From positions 1,620,295 to 1,684,294 of the forward strand of contig OY279575.1 of the NCBI GenBank assembly GCA_958267355.1: a stretch of DNA of 64,000 nucleotides, given 5' to 3'. Position numbers and translations under genes: made by a program. Positions 32,749 through 52,408 of this stretch are shown here, piece by piece (the first letter of the stretch is position 1; the number at the start of each line of letters is the position of its first letter). Below the pieces are notes generated by a model that saw only the letters and a list, made by a program, of their open reading frames with translations, was not told the DNA's origin and did no database searches. Source of the DNA: an uncultured Alphaproteobacteria bacterium (GTDB lineage: Bacteria > Pseudomonadota > Alphaproteobacteria > JALCBB01).

Positions 32749-33250
32749 AGGCAAGAGAAAAGGCTAGAGAGCAAGTGAGAGAACAAGTGAGAGAACAAGC
32801 GAGAGAAAAAACAAGAGGCAAAAGGTGCAACAGGGGGTAAAGCCAGCGAAGAACAGGAATGGCGGCGTTTTGCTGGGTCTTGATAGGCTGGATTGTGCTG
32901 GGCTAGTATAAGCCCGTTAAGCGCTTCGTTGCTCTCTTTGTCTGCTCCTTGGTTTGCCTTTTGATTTTTCCGTGGCTTGGGGGGCTTTTGTTTCTGTGGT
33001 TTGTGCGTTTCCTTTCGCTTTTTCCCTTCGCTCTTGTCCTTCACTCTTTCCCTTCACTCTTTCCCTTCACTCTTTCCCTTCACTCTTTCCCTTCACTCTT
33101 TCCCTTCACTCTTTCCCTTCACTCTTTCCCTTCACTCTTTACCCTGTCCTTTACACCCTATCTTTTACACCCTATCTTTTACACCCTATCTTTTACACCC
33201 TATCCTTTACACCCTATCCTTTACACTCTGTCCTTGAGGGATTTTCTCTG
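32749..33250. other. Intergenic region dominated by repeats, upstream of rpmE and the ABC exporter
   Basis: No gene is supported in these 502 bases. A 12-bp GAGAGAACAAGT-type repeat lies at about 32767-32815 and the long pyrimidine-rich arrays (33040-33232) lead into rpmE. Between them (32820-33030) only a unique stretch is seen, which must hold two divergent promoters. Confidence 0.5.
33040..33232 (+). repeat. Pyrimidine-rich 13-bp array followed by a 14-bp array upstream of rpmE
   Basis: About eight units of CTTCACTCTTTCC (13 bp) run from about 33040 to 33138. They pass into TTACACCCTATCTT-type units (14 bp) starting at 33151, 33165, 33179, 33193, 33207 and 33221. The plus strand is almost all pyrimidine. 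The array ends just before the rpmE start and would form its 5' leader. Confidence 0.9.
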
Positions 33251-38625: not shown

Positions 38626-39083
38626 TGGGCGCACACTTCACGAGCAACAGCGGCTCTGTCCGCCGCGGACGGCGCGGGCGTAGGGGGCACCGCCGCCCTA
38701 TGTCCGAGATTAATGTCACGCCCTTCGTTGATGTGATGCTGGTGCTGTTGGTGATCTTTATGGTTACGGCTCCGCTTTTGACTTCGGGTGTGCCTGTGGA
38801 TTTGCCGAAAAGCCAAGCCCGTCCGCTGTCAGAACCGATTGAGCCGCTGGTTATCTCGCTCAACGCTGAAGGGGTGTTGTATCTGCAAGAAACTGAAGTT
38901 CCGCCTGAAGCACTCATTGCTCGCCTAGAAGCTGTTGTCCGCAGTAAGAGCGATACGCGGATTTTTGTCCGTGCAGACGCAGGACTCGCCTACGGCAGGG
39001 TCTTAGCCCTGATGGGACAGATTCAATCCGCAGGGTTTGAACGGGTGGCTCTGGTGTCGGAGTGGGAGTCCGACTCGCAGTAG
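38625..39083 (+). CDS. tolR: Tol-Pal system protein TolR
   Basis: An ExbD/TolR-family subunit of 152 residues. The membrane helix [22 protein letters not shown] carries the proton-binding aspartate, and LPKSQARPL marks the periplasmic neck. The N-terminus is a basic [12 protein letters not shown] cytoplasmic segment. Translationally coupled to tolQ. Confidence 0.96.
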
Positions 39084-39087
39084 CGCG

Positions 39088-39936
39088 ATGAAGCGCAAGC
39101 CATCGTATTCTGCCGTTGTCACCCGCCGCTCCACCCGCTCGTGGTTTGTCGGCAGAGCAGGGTCAGCAGGCTTGCCTTCGTGGTTTGTCTCGGTTTCTCT
39201 CCACGCGGGATTCTTTGCCTTTGTTTGGCTGCTCCATATCAACGATGCGCCCGTGCCGCCGCCGCCGCCTGTTGCTGAAGTCATCTCGCTGGAGGAACTG
39301 CAAACCCTTTTAGAACCCGAACCCGAAGAACCCGAGCCAGAACCTGAACCCGAGCCAGAACCCGAACCAGAGCCCGAACCCGAGCCTGAACCCGAGCCAG
39401 AGCCTGAGCCCGAACCTGAACCCGAGCCTGAACCCGTGGCAGAGCCCGAGCCTGAACCTGTCCCCAGCCCGACCGTGATTGCCGCCCCTGATACACCTCC
39501 GCCGCCGAAGCCCGAGCCACCCAAGCCTGACCCTTTGAACTCAATTCTGCGCGATATCTTGGAGCGTCCTGAAACAGAGCGGCGGACAACAACACCTGTT
39601 GCCAGTGCGCCGCAGGTTTCCAACGCGGAGCTTTTAGCTCTGCAACGCGAAATTGCCCGTCGTGTTTCTTCCTGTTGGCGGCTTGACCCTGGAGCCCGCC
39701 AAGCCGAAAACCTACAGGTGCCTGTTTTGATGAAGCTCCGCCGCGATGGCACTTTGTCCGAGCCGCCGAAGCTCCTTGACCCTGCTCGTGCTACTCGCGA
39801 CCCTTTCTATCGCGGAGCTGCCGAACGCGCCTTGCGGGCTTTGCGGGAGTGTGCGCCTTATCCTTTACCTGTTGAACGCTACGAAATCTGGCGCGAAGTA
39901 GAATTTCACTTTAATCCTAGCCGCATTCTGCGGTAA
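39088..39936 (+). CDS. tolA: TolA-like protein with an EP-repeat periplasmic linker
   Basis: The third Tol motor component, spanning inner membrane to periplasm. A short basic N-terminus, one membrane helix (about residues 32-50), a proline-rich box and about 55 residues of EPEPEP repeat precede the C-terminal TolA/TonB-like domain ([20 protein letters not shown] ... [14 protein letters not shown]). The linker is (EP)n, as in TonB, rather than the A/K/E-rich helix of E. coli TolA. I chose ATG 39088; upstream TTG 39037 lies in tolR. Position between tolR and tolB supports the TolA call. Confidence 0.88.
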
Positions 39937-40059: not shown

Positions 40060-41388
40060 ATGCTCCGATTTTTCTCTTTGGCTTTGGCTCTTCTGGTCGT
40101 GGCGGGGCTAAACGCCGCACTTCTTGCCCCTGCCAAGGCACAGCTGCGCGTGGATGTGCAACAGGGCTTCTTTGAGCCCCTGCCGATTGCCTTGCCTTCC
40201 TTTGCTGACCCCGACACCTTCGGGATTGGGCGCGAGCTGGCAGATGTCATCGCCGCCGACTTGGAGTCGTCGGGGTTATTTCGTCCTGTATCGCGCGATG
40301 CTTACATTCAAGACGCGGCTTCCTTGGCCCGCGGTCCGCGGTTTGGTGATTGGCGTTTAATTGACGCTCAGCTTCTGGTCTCAGGACGCATTGCCCGTGC
40401 GGGGGCAGGGCGTTTTCGTGCTGAATTTCGTCTCTACGACACCTTGAGTGAGAGTCAGATGCAAGCCCTTGCCTTTACGGGGAATGCAAACGAATGGCGG
40501 CGGATTGCCCATTTGATTGCCGATCGTATCTATGCGCGGGTTTTGGGTGAAGATGGCTATTTTGACTCGCGGATTGTCTATGTTGCTGAAAGTGGTCAGC
40601 AGGGTGCGCCCAACAAACGTTTGGCAATTATGGACTCCGATGGACACGGTCATCGTTTTTTGACCGATGGTTCGTTTTTGGTTTTGACTCCGCGCTTTTC
40701 GCCTGATGGTACGCGGCTGGTCTATTTGTCCTTTGCTGGGGGCTTACCCCGAGTTCACCTGTATGACCTGCGCACACGGCGGGAAACTTTGCTGGGTGAT
40801 TTTCCGGGTTTGAGTTTTGCGCCGCGTTTTTCTCCTGATGGTAGCGAAGTGATTATGTCTTTGGCGCGTGAGGGGAATACCGATATTTATCGGATGAACC
40901 TGCGCACCCAACAATTAACGCGGCTCACCAATCATCCAGCAATTGATACTTCGCCTGACTTTTCGCCTGATGGCAAAAGTGTGGTCTTCAATTCCGACAG
41001 GGGTGGTACGCAACAGATCTATATGATGGAGTCCGATGGCAGTGCTGTCCGCCGCCTATCGTTTGGCATCGGACGCTATGCGACTCCTGTTTGGTCTCCG
41101 CGTGGGGATTTGTTGGCGTTCACGCGGATCCACAAAGGCGTTTTTTATGTTGGCGTAATGCGCAAAGACGGAAGCGGCGAGCGTATGCTCTCGCGTGGCT
41201 TTTCCGTGGAAGCACCAACTTGGTCGCCCAACGGACGCGTCTTGCTGTTCTTCAAAGAAGAACGCGCCACCAACGATGGCTATCAAAAAAGCCGACTCTA
41301 TTCCATTGATGTCAGCGGCTATAACGAACGCCAGCTACCTACGCCGCTTGAAGCTTCTGACCCTGCTTGGTCGCCGCTCAACCCTTGA
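40060..41388 (+). CDS. tolB: Tol-Pal system beta-propeller protein TolB
   Basis: A periplasmic protein with an export signal ending PAKA-Q (about residue 27). An N-terminal domain of 130 residues is followed by a six-bladed propeller with repeated FSPDG/WSPNG motifs ([46 protein letters not shown]). The length of 442 is normal. A 102-bp repeat array begins 1 nt after its stop codon. Confidence 0.96.
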
Positions 41389-41389
41389 A

Positions 41390-41797
41390 GGAGTGTTCGT
41401 GCGCGTTGGCTCAATTAGCCCTTTACTAAAATTGTGGGGCTTAGCGGTTGGGGGAAGCAACAAGGCTTGGCATAGACACCGCACCGCAAAAGGAGTGTTC
41501 GTGCGTGTTGGCTCAATTAGCCCTTTGCTAAAATTGTGGGGCTTGGCGGTTGGAGGAAGCAACAAGGCTTGGCATAGATGCCGCACCGCAAAAGGAGTGT
41601 TTGTGCGCGTTGGCTCAATTAGCCCTTTGCTAAAATTGTGGGGCTTGGCGGTTGGGGGAAGCAACAAGGCTTGGCATAGACGCGGCACCGCAAAAGGAGT
41701 GTTCGTGTGCGTTGGCTCAATTAGCCCTTTACTAAAATTATGGGGCTTGGCGGTTGGGGGAAGCAACAAGGCTTGGCATAGATGCCGCACCGCAAGG
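41390..41797 (+). repeat. 102-bp tandem repeat, 4 units, between tolB and pal
   Basis: Units start at 41390, 41492, 41594 and 41696, each exactly 102 bp and at least 90% alike. Every unit begins with AAGGAG-TGTTC-GTG, a plausible ribosome-binding site and start, and carries a TTAGC-CCTTT-GCTAA type hairpin. In the frame of that GTG the array is open (34 residues per unit, GVFVRVGSISPLLKLWGLAV then GGSNKAWHRHRTAK). Six of about nine substitutions between copies are synonymous in that frame. It lies out of frame with tolB. Confidence 0.95.
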
Positions 41798-42615: not shown

Positions 42616-43008
42616 ACTCACCACCCAAGCCCCAAGCCCGAAGGGTTAGGCACACAAACGCTCTGGGTTGAGTCAGATACGCAAGTATTGCGGGTTAAGT
42701 CAGGCAAGCAGACACGCTGGGTTGAGTCAGGTACGCAAGCATTGCGGGTTGAGTTAGACAAGCAGACACACTGAGTTGAGTCAGGTGCGCAAGCATTGCG
42801 GGTTGAGTTAGACAAGCAGACACGCTGGGTTGAGTCAGGTACGCAAGCATTGCGGGTTAAGTCAGACAAGCAGACACGCTGGGTTGAGTTGGGCAAGCAA
42901 GCACAAAACGCCGTGGCTTGACTCTCTACTCGGAGCAGACAAACAGGTCAGGCAAACCAAGCCCAATACGCCCGCGTGCGTGCAACTCCGCCTTTAGGAA
43001 TTCATCCC
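42616..43008 (+). repeat. 54-bp tandem repeat (4 units) in the pal-cpoB spacer
   Basis: Repeats lie at about 42660-42895, with GGGTTGAG landmarks at 42665, 42719, 42773 (as GAGTTGAG), 42827 and 42881, exactly 54 bp apart. Each unit is itself two degenerate 27-bp halves sharing GGGTTGAGT. The minus strand has an open Cys-rich frame (42618-42896), but changes between copies are not biased to synonymous sites. The remaining spacer has no gene. Confidence 0.88.
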
Positions 43009-44337
43009 GTGCGCCTTGCCCTCCTTGCCTCCCTTATCATCGCCCTTGCTCTCGGCGTTGCACCGCTCCCCGCCCACGCCCAAAGCGTGGACGATGAACT
43101 CACCCTGCTCCGCTCACGCCTAGAAGCCCTAGAAAACGATTTCGGTACCCTGCTCCGTGCCCACCAAGAACTGGTCAAGCTACAACAAGACCAACGCCAA
43201 GACCTAACCAAAGCCCAAGAAGAACTCCGCAAAGCCCGCGAAAGCCAAGCCACGCAAACTTCTACCCGCCTGTCCGCCGCCGACCAGCAAGCCCTTGTCC
43301 AAACCGAACGCACCAGCCAAGCCGCCGCCCAAACCGCACAAGAAGCCGCTACCGCCAGCCAAGAAGCCGCAGATGCCTTGGCAAGCCTACGCACTGAGCT
43401 TATCGCCCTGACCGACGAGACAAAATCCGCACTCGCTGACGCCACCCGCCAAGCCGCAGAGTCAGCCAGCGAAGCCCAAGAAATCCTTGCCGCCATCCGC
43501 GAAGCCCAGCAGACAGAGCCACAAACCGCCGACACAGAAAGCGAAGCCGAGACAAGCGAAGCCCAAAGCACTCTTGCCAACAGCAATTCGCCTGAAGTGC
43601 GACTCCTGCTCGGACGCTTAGAAGAACTGGAAGGCTTACAACGCGCCACCACAGGCTCGCTAGAACAACTGGAATACCGCCTACGCACCCTAGAACAAGC
43701 CCTGCAGTCCGCCTTTTCGGCAGCCCCGCCCGATAGCGGCGTACAAAGCGAAGCCCTAGACGAATTCTCCAGCTCTGCCCTCACCCCCGAACAAGCAGGA
43801 GAAGACACAACAAGCACCGTACAAACCTTAGGCGAAGTTTCCGACTCAAGTCTGCAACAAGCCGCCCGCGAAGCCGCCGCATCGGCTTCGGTCTCGCTCG
43901 CCACCCTTGCCCCCAGCGAAACCGCAGAGACAGCAAGCCCCCGTGCCGCCGCCACACCGCAAGAGCAATACGCCATCGCCTTCGCTCTTCTACGCTCAAA
44001 CCAATACGCTGAAGCCGAAAGCGAACTTCGCACCTTCCTAGAGCAGTGGCCCGAAGATGCACTCGCCGACAATGCCCGCTACTGGCTGGGCGAAACGCTC
44101 TATGTCCGCAAAGAATACCAAGCCGCCGCCCGTGTCTTCGCCGAAGGATTAGACCGCGCTCCCGATGGTGCAAAAGCCCCCGACAACTTGCTCAAACTTG
44201 GCTTGTCGTTTTCTTCCCTGGGCGACAACGAAAAAGCCTGCCAAGTACTCTTAAGCCTAGCAACCCGCTATGTGGAAGCTCCTGAAACCATCCTGCGACG
44301 GGGTGAAGCGGAGAGAAACCGACTTGCCTGTCCCTGA
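43009..44337 (+). CDS. cpoB: Cell division coordinator CpoB / YbgF-like TPR protein
   Basis: A periplasmic protein that links Tol-Pal to peptidoglycan synthesis. From GTG 43009 a normal export signal runs to PAHA-Q. A long A/E/Q-rich coiled coil (residues about 30-240) and a low-complexity linker follow, then C-terminal TPR repeats starting TPQEQYAIAFALLRSNQYAEAESEL, with DALADNARYWLGETLYVRKEYQAAARVFAEG. At about 440 residues it is longer than E. coli CpoB because of the coiled coil. An upstream GTG at 42976 is less likely as it lacks a ribosome-binding site. The end overlaps tilS. Confidence 0.92.
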   Translation: MRLALLASLIIALALGVAPLPAHAQSVDDELTLLRSRLEALENDFGTLLRAHQELVKLQQDQRQDLTKAQEELRKARESQATQTSTRLSAADQQALVQTERTSQAAAQTAQEAATASQEAADALASLRTELIALTDETKSALADATRQAAESASEAQEILAAIREAQQTEPQTADTESEAETSEAQSTLANSNSPEVRLLLGRLEELEGLQRATTGSLEQLEYRLRTLEQALQSAFSAAPPDSGVQSEALDEFSSSALTPEQAGEDTTSTVQTLGEVSDSSLQQAAREAAASASVSLATLAPSETAETASPRAAATPQEQYAIAFALLRSNQYAEAESELRTFLEQWPEDALADNARYWLGETLYVRKEYQAAARVFAEGLDRAPDGAKAPDNLLKLGLSFSSLGDNEKACQVLLSLATRYVEAPETILRRGEAERNRLACP

Positions 44338-46258
44338 ACTCTTTCGTGAACAGTTTCGCGAACCCTGTCGCGAACAGCTTCGCGAACCCTTTCGCGAAAA
44401 TTTTCCTGTCCCGCTCGCCCTAGCCACTCATCTAGGGATGCACCCAAACAGCCCGCCCAATACAACAGCACTGCCGTCGCTGACACATCTTTTTGATTCA
44501 GCCCTTGCCCGTCTGCTGGCTCTGCCTGCCCATCCCGCCCATAGCCAGCGTACGCTCAATAGCCTTGCCCCTAGCTTAGGGCAGGGCTTTTCTCTGCCAC
44601 GGCTGGCAGTGGCTTTTTCAGGCGGCACCGATAGTCTCGCACTCTTGGCACTCACCGCAGACTGGGCACAGCGCAAGCATGCCCCGCCCCCCTTGGCACT
44701 TGTGGTCAATCATTCCTTGACTGCTGACTCCGCCCATCGTGCCACCCAAGCCCAAGAACTTGCCCGCACTTTAGGTGTGGCGGCGAAGGTTTTATCCAGC
44801 ACAGACTCTACGGACTCTATTAAGCCCAAGGCAGAACCAGCACACGGCGAAGCCGCGTTACACAAACACGGCGAAGCCGCGTTACACAAACACGGCGAAG
44901 CCGTGTTGCGCCGCCATCGCTACGCTTTGTTAGAGTCTGCTTGTCGCCAAGAAGGCTTGTTGTTCCTGCTCCTTGCCCACCAGCAGGATGACCTGCTGGA
45001 AACCTACCGCTTGCGTGTCGCTCGTGGCAGTAGCCCCTTCGGCTTGGCGGGAATTTCTGCTGTCCGTGACCTCGCCGAACTGCGACTTTTGCGTCCGCTC
45101 CTTGCCACGCCACGGACTGCTCTGGAAGACCATCTTGTCCAGACAGGGCTACAAGCCGTTGAAGACCCCACCAATGCCGCCCTTGTGCCAAATCCAAGGA
45201 ACACAAAAGGCACAAGCGAGACAAAAAACACAAAAAACACAAATAGGAATCAACGGGTACAACTGCGGATCAACTTGGCTCGCCTTCCCGCCTATGAGCG
45301 CAAGCGGATTTTAAACCACGAGCGCAAGGCAGTCCATTGCGCGGCGCAAGTCCGCGCCCAGAGAGAACAGCAAGCCGCTGATCTAGGCAGGCACCTTGCC
45401 AAGCTTTCGCCCTACGGATTTGCCACCCTTGAAAATGTTTCTGCTCTTACCTCTGCTCAAGCTGATATCCGTGTCTTAGTTTTGCGCGCGCTCTTTCAGG
45501 CGATTGGTGGCACTGCACCGACCCCAGAAGCCTTGCGTCCTTTGGCGACTCTCCTTGCCGCTTCTGCCCAAGGAGACAGCGAAGAAAACAAGGGCGAAGA
45601 AAACAAGGGGGAAGAAAATAAGGGGGAAGAAAATAAGGGGAAAGAAAATAAGGGGAAAGAAAATAAGGGGGAAGAAACCAAGGGGGAAAAGGTGGAAAAA
45701 GGCGGGAAAACACGAAAGAACAAGACAAGCAGAGGAAACAAGATGGGTAGCGAGGAAAAGCCTGCGCCTTCAATGCCAACCTGCCTTGCAGGCTGTCGGC
45801 TCATTCTGCCCGTCAGGCAAAACGCTCCTTTTTTGGTGGTGCGCGAGTCGGCGCGTCTGGCTCCTGCGCCCGCCCAAGCAGGATACCAAGTCTGGGACAA
45901 GCGGTTTGCCATTACCTTGCCCCACTCTAACCCCTACACGCAGATTGCCCCCTACACGGGCACGGCAAAAGCTGTGCGCCAACTTGTCCGCCAGCAGAAG
46001 AACGCAGACCTGCACCCAACTGCCGCACTTCCTGCTGTTGTGTTAAACAGCCTGCCCGTGCTTCTCAAAGCAGACGACTCGCCAAGCGACCCGCAGTTGC
46101 TTGTCCAAACGCTTCTTATGTTAACGGAAAATTTGGAGCTAACAAAAAATTCAAAAGACAAAAAAAGCACTACCACAAGACAAATTCGCTTCTTGCCCAG
46201 CCCCCCGCCTTTTTCAGCTCCCTTTGTGCCATTTTTTGTCTGCCGCTTTTTGCCCTAG
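44270..46258 (+). CDS. tilS: tRNA(Ile)-lysidine synthase TilS with low-complexity inserts
   Basis: Converts the wobble C of tRNA-Ile(CAU) to lysidine, essential for reading AUA. The N-type ATP pyrophosphatase domain has AVAFSGGTDSLALLAL (near residue 117), VVNHSLT and AHQQDDLLETYRLR, followed by GLAGI...LLRPLLATPR. At 662 residues it is far above the usual about 430-450. The excess comes from three repeats: FREQ/FREP (44342-44401), HGEAALHK (44843-44914) and EENKG (45581-45685), plus a K/T/N stretch. The start is uncertain: ATG 44270 overlaps cpoB by 68 nt, and ATG 44438 would skip the first repeat. Confidence 0.9.
   Translation: MWKLLKPSCDGVKRRETDLPVPELFREQFREPCREQLREPFRENFPVPLALATHLGMHPNSPPNTTALPSLTHLFDSALARLLALPAHPAHSQRTLNSLAPSLGQGFSLPRLAVAFSGGTDSLALLALTADWAQRKHAPPPLALVVNHSLTADSAHRATQAQELARTLGVAAKVLSSTDSTDSIKPKAEPAHGEAALHKHGEAALHKHGEAVLRRHRYALLESACRQEGLLFLLLAHQQDDLLETYRLRVARGSSPFGLAGISAVRDLAELRLLRPLLATPRTALEDHLVQTGLQAVEDPTNAALVPNPRNTKGTSETKNTKNTNRNQRVQLRINLARLPAYERKRILNHERKAVHCAAQVRAQREQQAADLGRHLAKLSPYGFATLENVSALTSAQADIRVLVLRALFQAIGGTAPTPEALRPLATLLAASAQGDSEENKGEENKGEENKGEENKGKENKGKENKGEETKGEKVEKGGKTRKNKTSRGNKMGSEEKPAPSMPTCLAGCRLILPVRQNAPFLVVRESARLAPAPAQAGYQVWDKRFAITLPHSNPYTQIAPYTGTAKAVRQLVRQQKNADLHPTAALPAVVLNSLPVLLKADDSPSDPQLLVQTLLMLTENLELTKNSKDKKSTTTRQIRFLPSPPPFSAPFVPFFVCRFLP
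44342..44401 (+). repeat. 12-bp tandem repeat, 5 units, near the 5' end of tilS
   Basis: Units such as TTTCGCGAACCC alternate with TTTCGTGAACAG from 44342. Several contain the palindrome TTCGCGAA. If translated they give FREQ/FREP. The array starts right after the cpoB stop codon. Confidence 0.85.
44843..44914 (+). repeat. 24-bp tandem repeat, 3 units, in tilS
   Basis: CACGGCGAAGCCGCGTTACA plus CAAA repeats at 44843 and 44867, with a diverged third copy at 44891. It encodes HGEAALHK units between the signature motifs of the ATPase domain. Confidence 0.9.
45581..45685 (+). repeat. 15-bp tandem repeat, 7 units, in tilS
   Basis: Purine-rich units of the form GAAGAAAATAAGGGG occur at 45581, 45596, 45611, 45626, 45641, 45656 and 45671. 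They encode EENKG/KENKG and sit between the catalytic and C-terminal domains. Confidence 0.92.
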
Positions 46259-49318: not shown

Positions 49319-49495
49319 AGTCCCCCACAGAAAATACCACGGCAAATGGCACAGAAAATACCACGGCAAACACCACAGAAAACGCCACGGAAAACACCCA
49401 ACAAACACCACGGCAAACCCCACAACAAATCGCCATAATCGATTGGCACACCTTCAATTTCCCTCCTGTTGTTCTTGCCTTATAGTTAGCCCTCT
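49319..49495 (+). repeat. Degenerate repeat in the folP-glmM spacer
   Basis: Units of the kind CACAGAAAATACCACGGCAAA recur every 12-24 bp between about 49325 and 49432. No gene or terminator is evident. Confidence 0.6.
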
Positions 49496-51253
49496 ATGTC
49501 TGCTGTGCGCTCCACTTCTACGACTCGCCCGCCGCGTCTCTTCGGCACCGACGGAATGCGCGGTGCTGTCAATCAAGAGCCGATTACCGCCGCCACAGTG
49601 CTTGCCGTGGCAATGGCGGCGGCGGCAAGCCTACGCCGCACCAATCGCCACAGCCATACCCCGCGAGTCGTCATCGGCAAGGACACGCGCCTTGGCAACT
49701 ATATGCTGGAGTCAGCACTAGAAGCAGGCTTCACCTCTATGGGTATGGAAGTTGTGCTTTTGGGCCCTGCACCGACTCCTGCGGTTTCAATGTTAACCCG
49801 CTCCATGCGGGCAGATTTGGGAGTGATGATTTCTGCGTCGCACAATCCGTATCACGACAGCGGCTTGAAGTTTTTCGGCTCCGACGGATACAAGCTTCCC
49901 GACAGCAAAGAAAAAGAAATCGCCAGCAAAGCTCAAGCCGCACGACGCGGCACCTTGCCGCTGGCAGCAGGTGAAGATCTAGGGCGTGCCCGCCGCTTGG
50001 ATGATGCCATCGGGCGGTACATTGAATACGCCAAGAATTCCTTTCCGAGTCATCTAAGCCTAGAGGGTTGTCGCTTGGTTTTAGATTGCGCCAATGGTGC
50101 TGCCTATAAAGTCGCGCCTACAGTCTTTCGTGAGTTGGGAGCAGAAGTGCGCTTGCTCTCGGCGACTCCTGATGGACGCAACATTAATGCCGATTGTGGA
50201 GCGGTACATCCGCAGGCAATGTGCCGTGAGACGCGGCGTGTCGGTGCCCGCTTGGGTATTGCTCTTGATGGCGATGCAGACCGCGTTATTTTTTCTGACG
50301 AACGCGGACAGCGGGTTGATGGCGACCAAGTCCTAGCACTGGTTGCTCGTTCGTGGGCGCAAGCGGGGCGGCTCAAGGGCAAGGCGATTGTTGCGACTGA
50401 TATGTCCAATCTTGGGCTGGAACAGTACTTGGACGAGCTAGGGCTTGCCCTAAAACGCGCTCCTGTCGGTGACCGCTATGTGCTGGAAGCCATGCGCCGC
50501 CACGGGTGCAACCTTGGCGGCGAGGAGTCGGGGCATGTCATCTTGTCAGATCTCGCCACCACAGGAGACGGAGTCATTGCCGCTCTGCAGGTCTTGGCGG
50601 TCTTGCTCGGCAATCGCCGCCACAAAGCGTCAGAAGCCTTTCGCTTGTTTGACCCTGTGCCGCAAGTGCGGCGTGATATTGTCTTTGCCTCGCAAGCGGC
50701 GGCAGAAGCCTGTCTGGCAAGTGCGCAGTTGCGTTCTGTGCGTACTCGTGTTGATGGGTTGTTGAAGTCTGTGCCGCATCGGGTCTTGGTGCGGGCTTCG
50801 GGCACTGAGCCTTTGCTCCGCGTTATGGTGGAGTGTCAGGACAAAGCCCGTGGCGCACGGGCGGCAAGTCTGTTGCAACAGGAAGCCCAAAGCCAAGCAA
50901 AGACAAAATCTAAGGGAACAAAAGCCAAGGGAATAAAAGCCAAGGGAACAAAATCCACAGGCAAGGCGAAAGCTCCAGTAGGGACAAAAGCCACGGGAAA
51001 GGCGAAAGCCAAGGGAAAAGCGAAAGCCAAAGGAAAGGCGAAAGCCAAGGGCAGGGCGAAAGCCGAGGGAAAAGGAAAATCTACGCTAAGGGCAAAAGCT
51101 AAGGCAGGGGCGCATACCAAGAAAAGTACCAAGAAAAGTCCCGAGAAAAGTGCCAAGAAAAGTGCCAAGAAAAGCGTTAAGAAAAGCACCAAGAAGAAAA
51201 GCACCAAGAAAAGAGCGAAAGTGAAAAAGTCAAAGCCGAAAAAGCAATCCTAA
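49496..51253 (+). CDS. glmM: Phosphoglucosamine mutase with a lysine-rich C-terminal tail
   Basis: Converts glucosamine 6-phosphate to the 1-phosphate for peptidoglycan and LPS synthesis. Motifs are FGTDGMRGAVN, the phosphoserine loop MISASHNPYHDSGLKFFG (near residue 114), the metal loop DGDADRVIFSDERG and the sugar/phosphate motifs GGEESGH and RASGTEPLLRVMVE. The enzyme ends by about residue 462, as usual; another about 120 residues of K/A/G/S/T repeats follow, encoded by 18-bp and 12-bp arrays. The tail resembles histone H1-like bacterial tails, and no such extension is known to me for GlmM. Confidence 0.95.
   Translation: MSAVRSTSTTRPPRLFGTDGMRGAVNQEPITAATVLAVAMAAAASLRRTNRHSHTPRVVIGKDTRLGNYMLESALEAGFTSMGMEVVLLGPAPTPAVSMLTRSMRADLGVMISASHNPYHDSGLKFFGSDGYKLPDSKEKEIASKAQAARRGTLPLAAGEDLGRARRLDDAIGRYIEYAKNSFPSHLSLEGCRLVLDCANGAAYKVAPTVFRELGAEVRLLSATPDGRNINADCGAVHPQAMCRETRRVGARLGIALDGDADRVIFSDERGQRVDGDQVLALVARSWAQAGRLKGKAIVATDMSNLGLEQYLDELGLALKRAPVGDRYVLEAMRRHGCNLGGEESGHVILSDLATTGDGVIAALQVLAVLLGNRRHKASEAFRLFDPVPQVRRDIVFASQAAAEACLASAQLRSVRTRVDGLLKSVPHRVLVRASGTEPLLRVMVECQDKARGARAASLLQQEAQSQAKTKSKGTKAKGIKAKGTKSTGKAKAPVGTKATGKAKAKGKAKAKGKAKAKGRAKAEGKGKSTLRAKAKAGAHTKKSTKKSPEKSAKKSAKKSVKKSTKKKSTKKRAKVKKSKPKKQS
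50887..51250 (+). repeat. Lysine-rich coding repeats in the glmM tail (18-bp and 12-bp arrays)
   Basis: AAAGCCAAGGGAAAAGCG-type 18-bp units start at 51005, 51023, 51041 and 51059; AGTGCCAAGAAA-type 12-bp units start at 51125, 51137, 51149, 51161, 51173 and 51185. Earlier degenerate units (50905-50960) encode KGTKAKG. All keep the frame open to the glmM stop. Confidence 0.92.
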
Positions 51254-52168: not shown

Positions 52169-52408
52169 AGAAGCGAACGACAAGCAGACGACAAGGGGAG
52201 GGCAAAGCCGCACAAAGCCGCGCAAAGCCGTAAGGCGAACAAACGACAAGGGAACAAACGACAAGGGAACAGATGACAAAGCAACAGATGACAAAGCAAC
52301 AGATGACAAGGCGAAGGGCAAAGCCGCTTGGTTATTTGCTCTCTCTATTCTCTCTATTATTTTGTGGCTCAATTCTTGTGGCACAGTTTTCAGGCAAACG
52401 CAGTTTCT
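52169..52408. repeat. 15-bp degenerate repeat between convergent genes
   Basis: From about 52175 to 52312 GACAAGGGAACAAAC and GACAAAGCAACAGAT units of 15 bp dominate, after looser GCACAAAGCC units. It separates thiD from the convergent transporter. No hairpin terminator is recognised. Confidence 0.75.

Follow-up and report, generated by a model that had tools for sequence, protein, structure and literature searches.

H1-like lysine tails of bacteria are known mainly from proteins that act on DNA and from granule proteins. In actinobacterial topoisomerase I (TopA) the lysine repeats make the enzyme-DNA complex more stable and the enzyme more processive (PMC7398561), the C-terminal domain of AlgP comprises 154 amino acids of KPAA repeats and has been likened to histone H1 (PMC9239181), and in Hc2 from Chlamydia and in H1-like proteins of the Bordetella type the number of lysine-rich repeats sets the length (PMC2848022). 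Our literature searches returned nothing relevant on a C-terminal extension of phosphoglucosamine mutase (GlmM) and no paper on lysine-rich tails of metabolic enzymes. The window analysed here, i.e. the whole stretch of 64,000 nucleotides from the genome of an uncultured alphaproteobacterium, encodes a GlmM that carries a tail of this kind.

The glmM gene is one unbroken open reading frame on the forward strand (49496-51253) that encodes 585 residues and lies in the gene order tilS-ftsH-folP-glmM-thiD. Its product scores 535.6 bits against TIGR01455 (cut-off 447.55), residues 16-456 covering positions 1-432 of the 442 profile positions, and stays under the cut-off of the Arch_GlmM model. All four Pfam PGM/PMM domains (PGM_PMM I-IV) are detected and solved GlmM structures align to residues 14-458. 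In the alignment the motifs that form the catalytic serine, metal, sugar and phosphate loops are intact, i.e. SASHNP (residues 113-118), DGDADR (258-263), GEESGH (342-347; the GE(E/Q)SGH motif of GlmM, which allows Glu or Gln at one place) and R-x-SGTEP (433-439), and AlphaFold predicts the core mostly with pLDDT values of 80-97. In the alignment the GlmM-like part extends to about residue 468 (49496-50899); with a net charge of +11 it is unusually basic. The core is GlmM by all criteria tested, length excepted, and the tail is an addition to a complete core.

The tail itself (50900-51250, forward strand) comprises 117 amino acids, residues 469-585, with a net charge of +48 and the composition K47 A20 S12 G12 T11 R3 E2 D0. 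Residues 473-581 are predicted by AlphaFold with pLDDT values below 50 and without secondary structure. Three tandem arrays identified by TRF are stacked in it: a period-15 array with the unit ACAAAAGCCAAGGGA (TKAKG; 3.7 copies, 50903-50957), a period-18 array with the unit AAAGCCAAGGGAAAGGCG (KAKGKA; 4.8 copies, 50987-51072), for which TRF gives 54 as an alternative period, and a period-12 array (KKS[TAVP]; 8 copies, 51115-51213) with a terminal period-15 part (51179-51210). All these periods (15, 18 and 12/15) are multiples of 3. The first-pass annotation had described an H1-like lysine tail of roughly 120 residues that begins at 50887; size, in-frame fusion and H1-like composition are borne out and the tail indeed runs on in frame to the stop codon, but its true start is at 50900, about four codons later. 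Like H1-like tails, it is long, predicted to be disordered, built from Lys/Ala-rich tandem repeats and almost free of acidic residues. Its host, though, is neither a nucleoid protein nor a protein acting on nucleic acids. As GlmM is a sugar-phosphate mutase, the tail falls outside the nucleoid-protein families and would at most work like an H1-like lysine tail.

Relatives were checked for the tail and it is missing from all other GlmM proteins examined. From R-x-SGTEP to the end of the chain there are 153 residues here vs. 36-49 in 66 GlmM proteins from other genomes. In the sister genus, represented by one genome, the only further one from this family, GlmM ends 42 residues after this motif with the short basic sequence AAASRKK, i.e. 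with a few extra residues (RKK) and no tail. A search of 385 genomes with the C-terminal 183 amino acids recovered only the gene itself, but this search was insensitive, as few candidates were scored per genome and even the core of the sister-genus GlmM was missed, so that it is not counted as a negative; likewise, a search of the own genome with the tail alone was insensitive and missed the tails of PyrH and SucC described below. The core of GlmM is basic in both genera, with net charges of +8 and +14, whereas those of 49 other GlmM proteins range from -19 to +1 with a mean of -5.4. FtsH, FolP and ThiD exhibit no basic shift like that of the GlmM core; in the comparison with these proteins one outlying GlmM charge (+16, L052) was left out as its alignment ran past a stop.

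The genome as a whole is laden with tandem repeats. In 824 kb of its 1.86 Mb we found 578 arrays, corresponding to 70 arrays per 100 kb and 5.6% of bases, which is about ten times denser than in loci of other Alphaproteobacteria (6-7 arrays per 100 kb, 0.2-0.3% of bases); the sister genus is intermediate with 25 arrays per 100 kb. Altogether, the stretches covered add up to 1.22 Mb for this genome and 0.84 Mb for that of the sister genus, with genes called by a crude, purpose-made dicodon ORF caller. Array density is four times as high in intergenic regions as within genes, where arrays concentrate in the first and last tenths. The period is divisible by 3 in 240 of 253 coding vs. 109 of 280 intergenic arrays (p 4e-47), with peaks at 13 and 14 for the intergenic and at 12, 15 and 24 for the coding arrays. 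The clean reading of this contrast is that slippage acts everywhere and that frame-breaking events are purged from genes. The composition of the arrays is varied (e.g. EP, TQ, DS and KENG), and some non-coding arrays would be lysine-rich as well if they were translated. Given this genome-wide habit and the period bias inside genes, the GlmM tail with its multiple-of-3 periods is best read as the expansion of a translated minisatellite, and the earlier proposal of a slippage product held in frame describes it well.

Similar repeats surround the gene. A period-12/24 minisatellite lies between folP and glmM (49325-49429, forward strand), and a period-15 minisatellite with the unit AAGGGAACAGATGAC follows thiD (52232-52311, forward strand); the latter is a non-coding counterpart of the repeat habit seen in the GlmM tail. 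TRF reports 60 rows for the window, e.g. 41388-41795 (102 bp x 4), 42663-42903 (54 bp x 4.5) and 33008-33235. The tilS gene (44270-46258) contains at least three in-frame arrays, including a charged EENKG-type insert (45581-45688), and a protein of 299 amino acids (39037-39936) has a stretch (39312-39458) that consists almost purely of Glu-Pro repeats. Loss of mismatch repair was considered as the cause of the repeats and rejected: mutS and mutL are both present as open frames, so a simple absence of this pathway is not the cause. The profile matches of MutS and MutL (L139, L141) are split by additional in-frame sequence.

The tail is no peculiarity of GlmM, as might have been gathered from the first-pass annotation. 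In the same genome PyrH has a C-terminal tail of about 100 residues with KKTGKKVS-type repeats (L079 13132-14205), SucC a lysine-rich tail of about 60 residues (L092 61-1260) and SucD an R/S/T/K-rich C-terminal end (L092 1262-2263), and C-terminal tails like that of GlmM are also found on AroQ (L228 17309-18007), DnaJ, MutY and ArgH. In the sister genus basic C-terminal ends occur on PyrH (L149), SucC, SucD (L159 2672-3670) and GroES (L206 11195-11581). The basic extensions of PyrH, SucC and SucD are unrelated in sequence between the two genera. PyrH and SucC of the other Alphaproteobacteria examined have normal ends without a basic tail, and 276 genes from other Alphaproteobacteria yielded no tail by the same C-terminal criterion. 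Lysine-rich extensions also occur at N-termini, as in ParC and PurM. ParC has a long lysine-rich N-terminal extension in both genera (L223 6933-9614; L158 8451-10868), the sequences being unrelated, and the same holds for the lysine-rich N-terminal extension of a further protein (L081 4044-4781; L169 12042-12887). Two proteins of 943 and 951 amino acids (L119 8988-11819 and L120 1560-4415) share near-identical basic C-termini (EAKPKRARRRRLKS); the former has no match in NCBIfam at 1e-8.

Whether the charge of such ends is kept can be approached by comparing the two genera. Among 283 orthologue pairs a strongly basic C-terminus in one genus goes along with a basic C-terminus in the other (4 of 4 vs. 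11 of 279), also if GlmM is left out (3 of 3 vs. 11 of 279), with p values not exceeding 1e-4 whichever threshold was used, in a test that is post hoc and based on three to four strong loci (SucC and SucD being neighbours), a single draft genome of the sister genus and crudely called genes. Unaligned extensions of orthologues are also correlated in charge (rho 0.52, n=81), and part of this cross-genus correlation may reflect ordinary homology of the C-termini. Purifying selection between the repeat copies of the GlmM tail was looked for and not seen, the mismatches being spread evenly across codon positions 1-3 (13, 15 and 15 of about 68 each). Lysine codons in lysine-rich arrays are only slightly better kept than others and C-terminal arrays overall are acidic as often as basic, both of which speak against a function of the tail. 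Lysine-rich stretches favour termini and acidic stretches are mostly internal.

Based on these findings we consider it most plausible, with a probability of roughly 50%, that the tail arose by repeat growth with retention of positive charge and confers weak polyanion binding, most plausibly to nucleic acid. Replication slippage would time and again have copied short units near the stop codon of glmM, and those copies that keep the frame and bring in no stop would survive, the outcome being a GlmM that is normal except for a disordered polycation at its C-terminus. To judge by PyrH, SucC and SucD, and less clearly by GlmM, the family may tolerate or even favour basic termini, so that length and sequence of the tail would turn over fast by slippage with the positive charge being retained; the basic ends of the former three proteins and the basic GlmM core in both genera point to retained charge. 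The likely effect would be a weak, sequence-independent electrostatic binding to polyanions of the cell, most plausibly nucleic acid (the nucleoid or ribosomes/mRNA), which would concentrate the enzyme there and leave catalysis unchanged. From the features computed here, i.e. the fused tail, its predicted disorder and repeat structure, the repeat load of the genome, the similar tails and the basic termini in two genera, we infer that the tail grew by slippage, is selected for its charge and binds nucleic acid; the origin by slippage is better supported than any function of the tail. A more far-reaching version, in which fast-evolving cationic tails on GlmM, PyrH, SucC, SucD, AroQ, GroES and others anchor or condense metabolism with the nucleoid or RNA, selection acting on charge only and slippage supplying the sequence, appears rather unlikely.

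Retention of charge has to be weighed against a tail that is a mere passenger, an explanation that we regard as a strong competitor of somewhat less than even weight. Tandem duplication would simply be frequent, disordered residues at the 3' end of glmM would be harmless, and lysine richness would reflect nothing but the A-rich seed that happened to be duplicated and its frame. The high density of arrays (about 70 in 100 kb, with a fourfold higher value between genes than inside them), the piling-up of coding arrays in the outermost tenths of genes, their diverse composition with some non-coding arrays that would read lysine-rich, the lack of a codon-position bias inside the tail and the tailless GlmM of the sister genus are all consistent with such a passenger. 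It accounts less well for the basic ends of PyrH, SucC and SucD, which occur in both genera despite unrelated repeats, for the preference of lysine-rich stretches for termini with acidic ones being mostly internal, and for a GlmM core that is basic in both genera.

The remaining explanations fare worse. As GlmM acts on the path to cell-wall precursors and a polycation of net +48 could bind anionic lipids, the tail might anchor the enzyme to the membrane near the cell-wall synthesis machinery, but similar tails are found on PyrH, SucCD, AroQ and DnaJ, which have no common membrane role, and AlphaFold predicts no amphipathic helix in the tail, making an anchor improbable. Even less credible is polyphosphate, which the first-pass annotation had named as a possible partner and whose binding has been proposed for AlgP of Pseudomonas: the tail resembles the AlgP C-terminus in composition (PMC9239181), but neither PPK1 (TIGR03705) nor PPK2 (PF03976) has a match in this genome or that of the sister genus, whereas control genomes match both, so that polyphosphate is disfavoured as a partner and was rejected. 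Finally, the tail might not be fused at all, true GlmM ending 8 to 15 codons on in a different frame and the rest being joined to it by a misassembly or a wrong base. Assembly of long arrays is prone to error, and as stops follow shortly after 50887 in the two other frames, a single indel would yield a GlmM of normal length. The tail region contains no stop in the used frame, and three and four stops in the other two forward frames; in sequences of the same dinucleotide make-up a stop-free frame arises by chance with p of about 0.05, so the open frame alone is weak evidence, to which the multiple-of-3 periods, typical of coding arrays genome-wide, add. With similar tails on several other genes and a single-contig genome of low contamination, such an error is very improbable, and a read-through or frameshift artefact as the source of the tail is likewise disfavoured by frame and array periods.

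Tails of this kind on metabolic enzymes, in a genome so rich in minisatellites, constitute a natural test of slippage alone against retention for charge, and the unrelated basic tails on PyrH, SucC and SucD in two genera make it possible to test this directly. Were selection to act on charge, methods that rely on sequence would overlook it.

Compared with the described systems, the GlmM tail shares with TopA the H1-like, degenerate lysine repeats added at the C-terminus of an enzyme, but TopA acts on DNA, whereas the substrate of GlmM is a small sugar phosphate and no nucleic-acid substrate is known for it. With AlgP and PhaF from Pseudomonas it has in common a lysine-rich tandem-repeat C-terminal domain that is disordered, in GlmM by prediction; those are putative DNA-binding, granule-associated proteins with KPAA repeats, whereas GlmM is a metabolic enzyme with TKAKG, KAKGKA and KKS[TAV] repeats from a genome without PPK. 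As in Hc2 and the Bordetella-type proteins, lysine-rich repeat units set the length, but these are stand-alone DNA-binding proteins and the GlmM tail is fused to an enzyme. By analogy with the TopA lysine repeats, AlgP and Hc2, nucleic acid would be the favoured ligand. Coding minisatellites (VNTR), in turn, resemble the tail in their in-gene tandem units with periods that are multiples of 3, and differ in that here such units are unusually dense (5.6% of bases) and sit on essential housekeeping enzymes.
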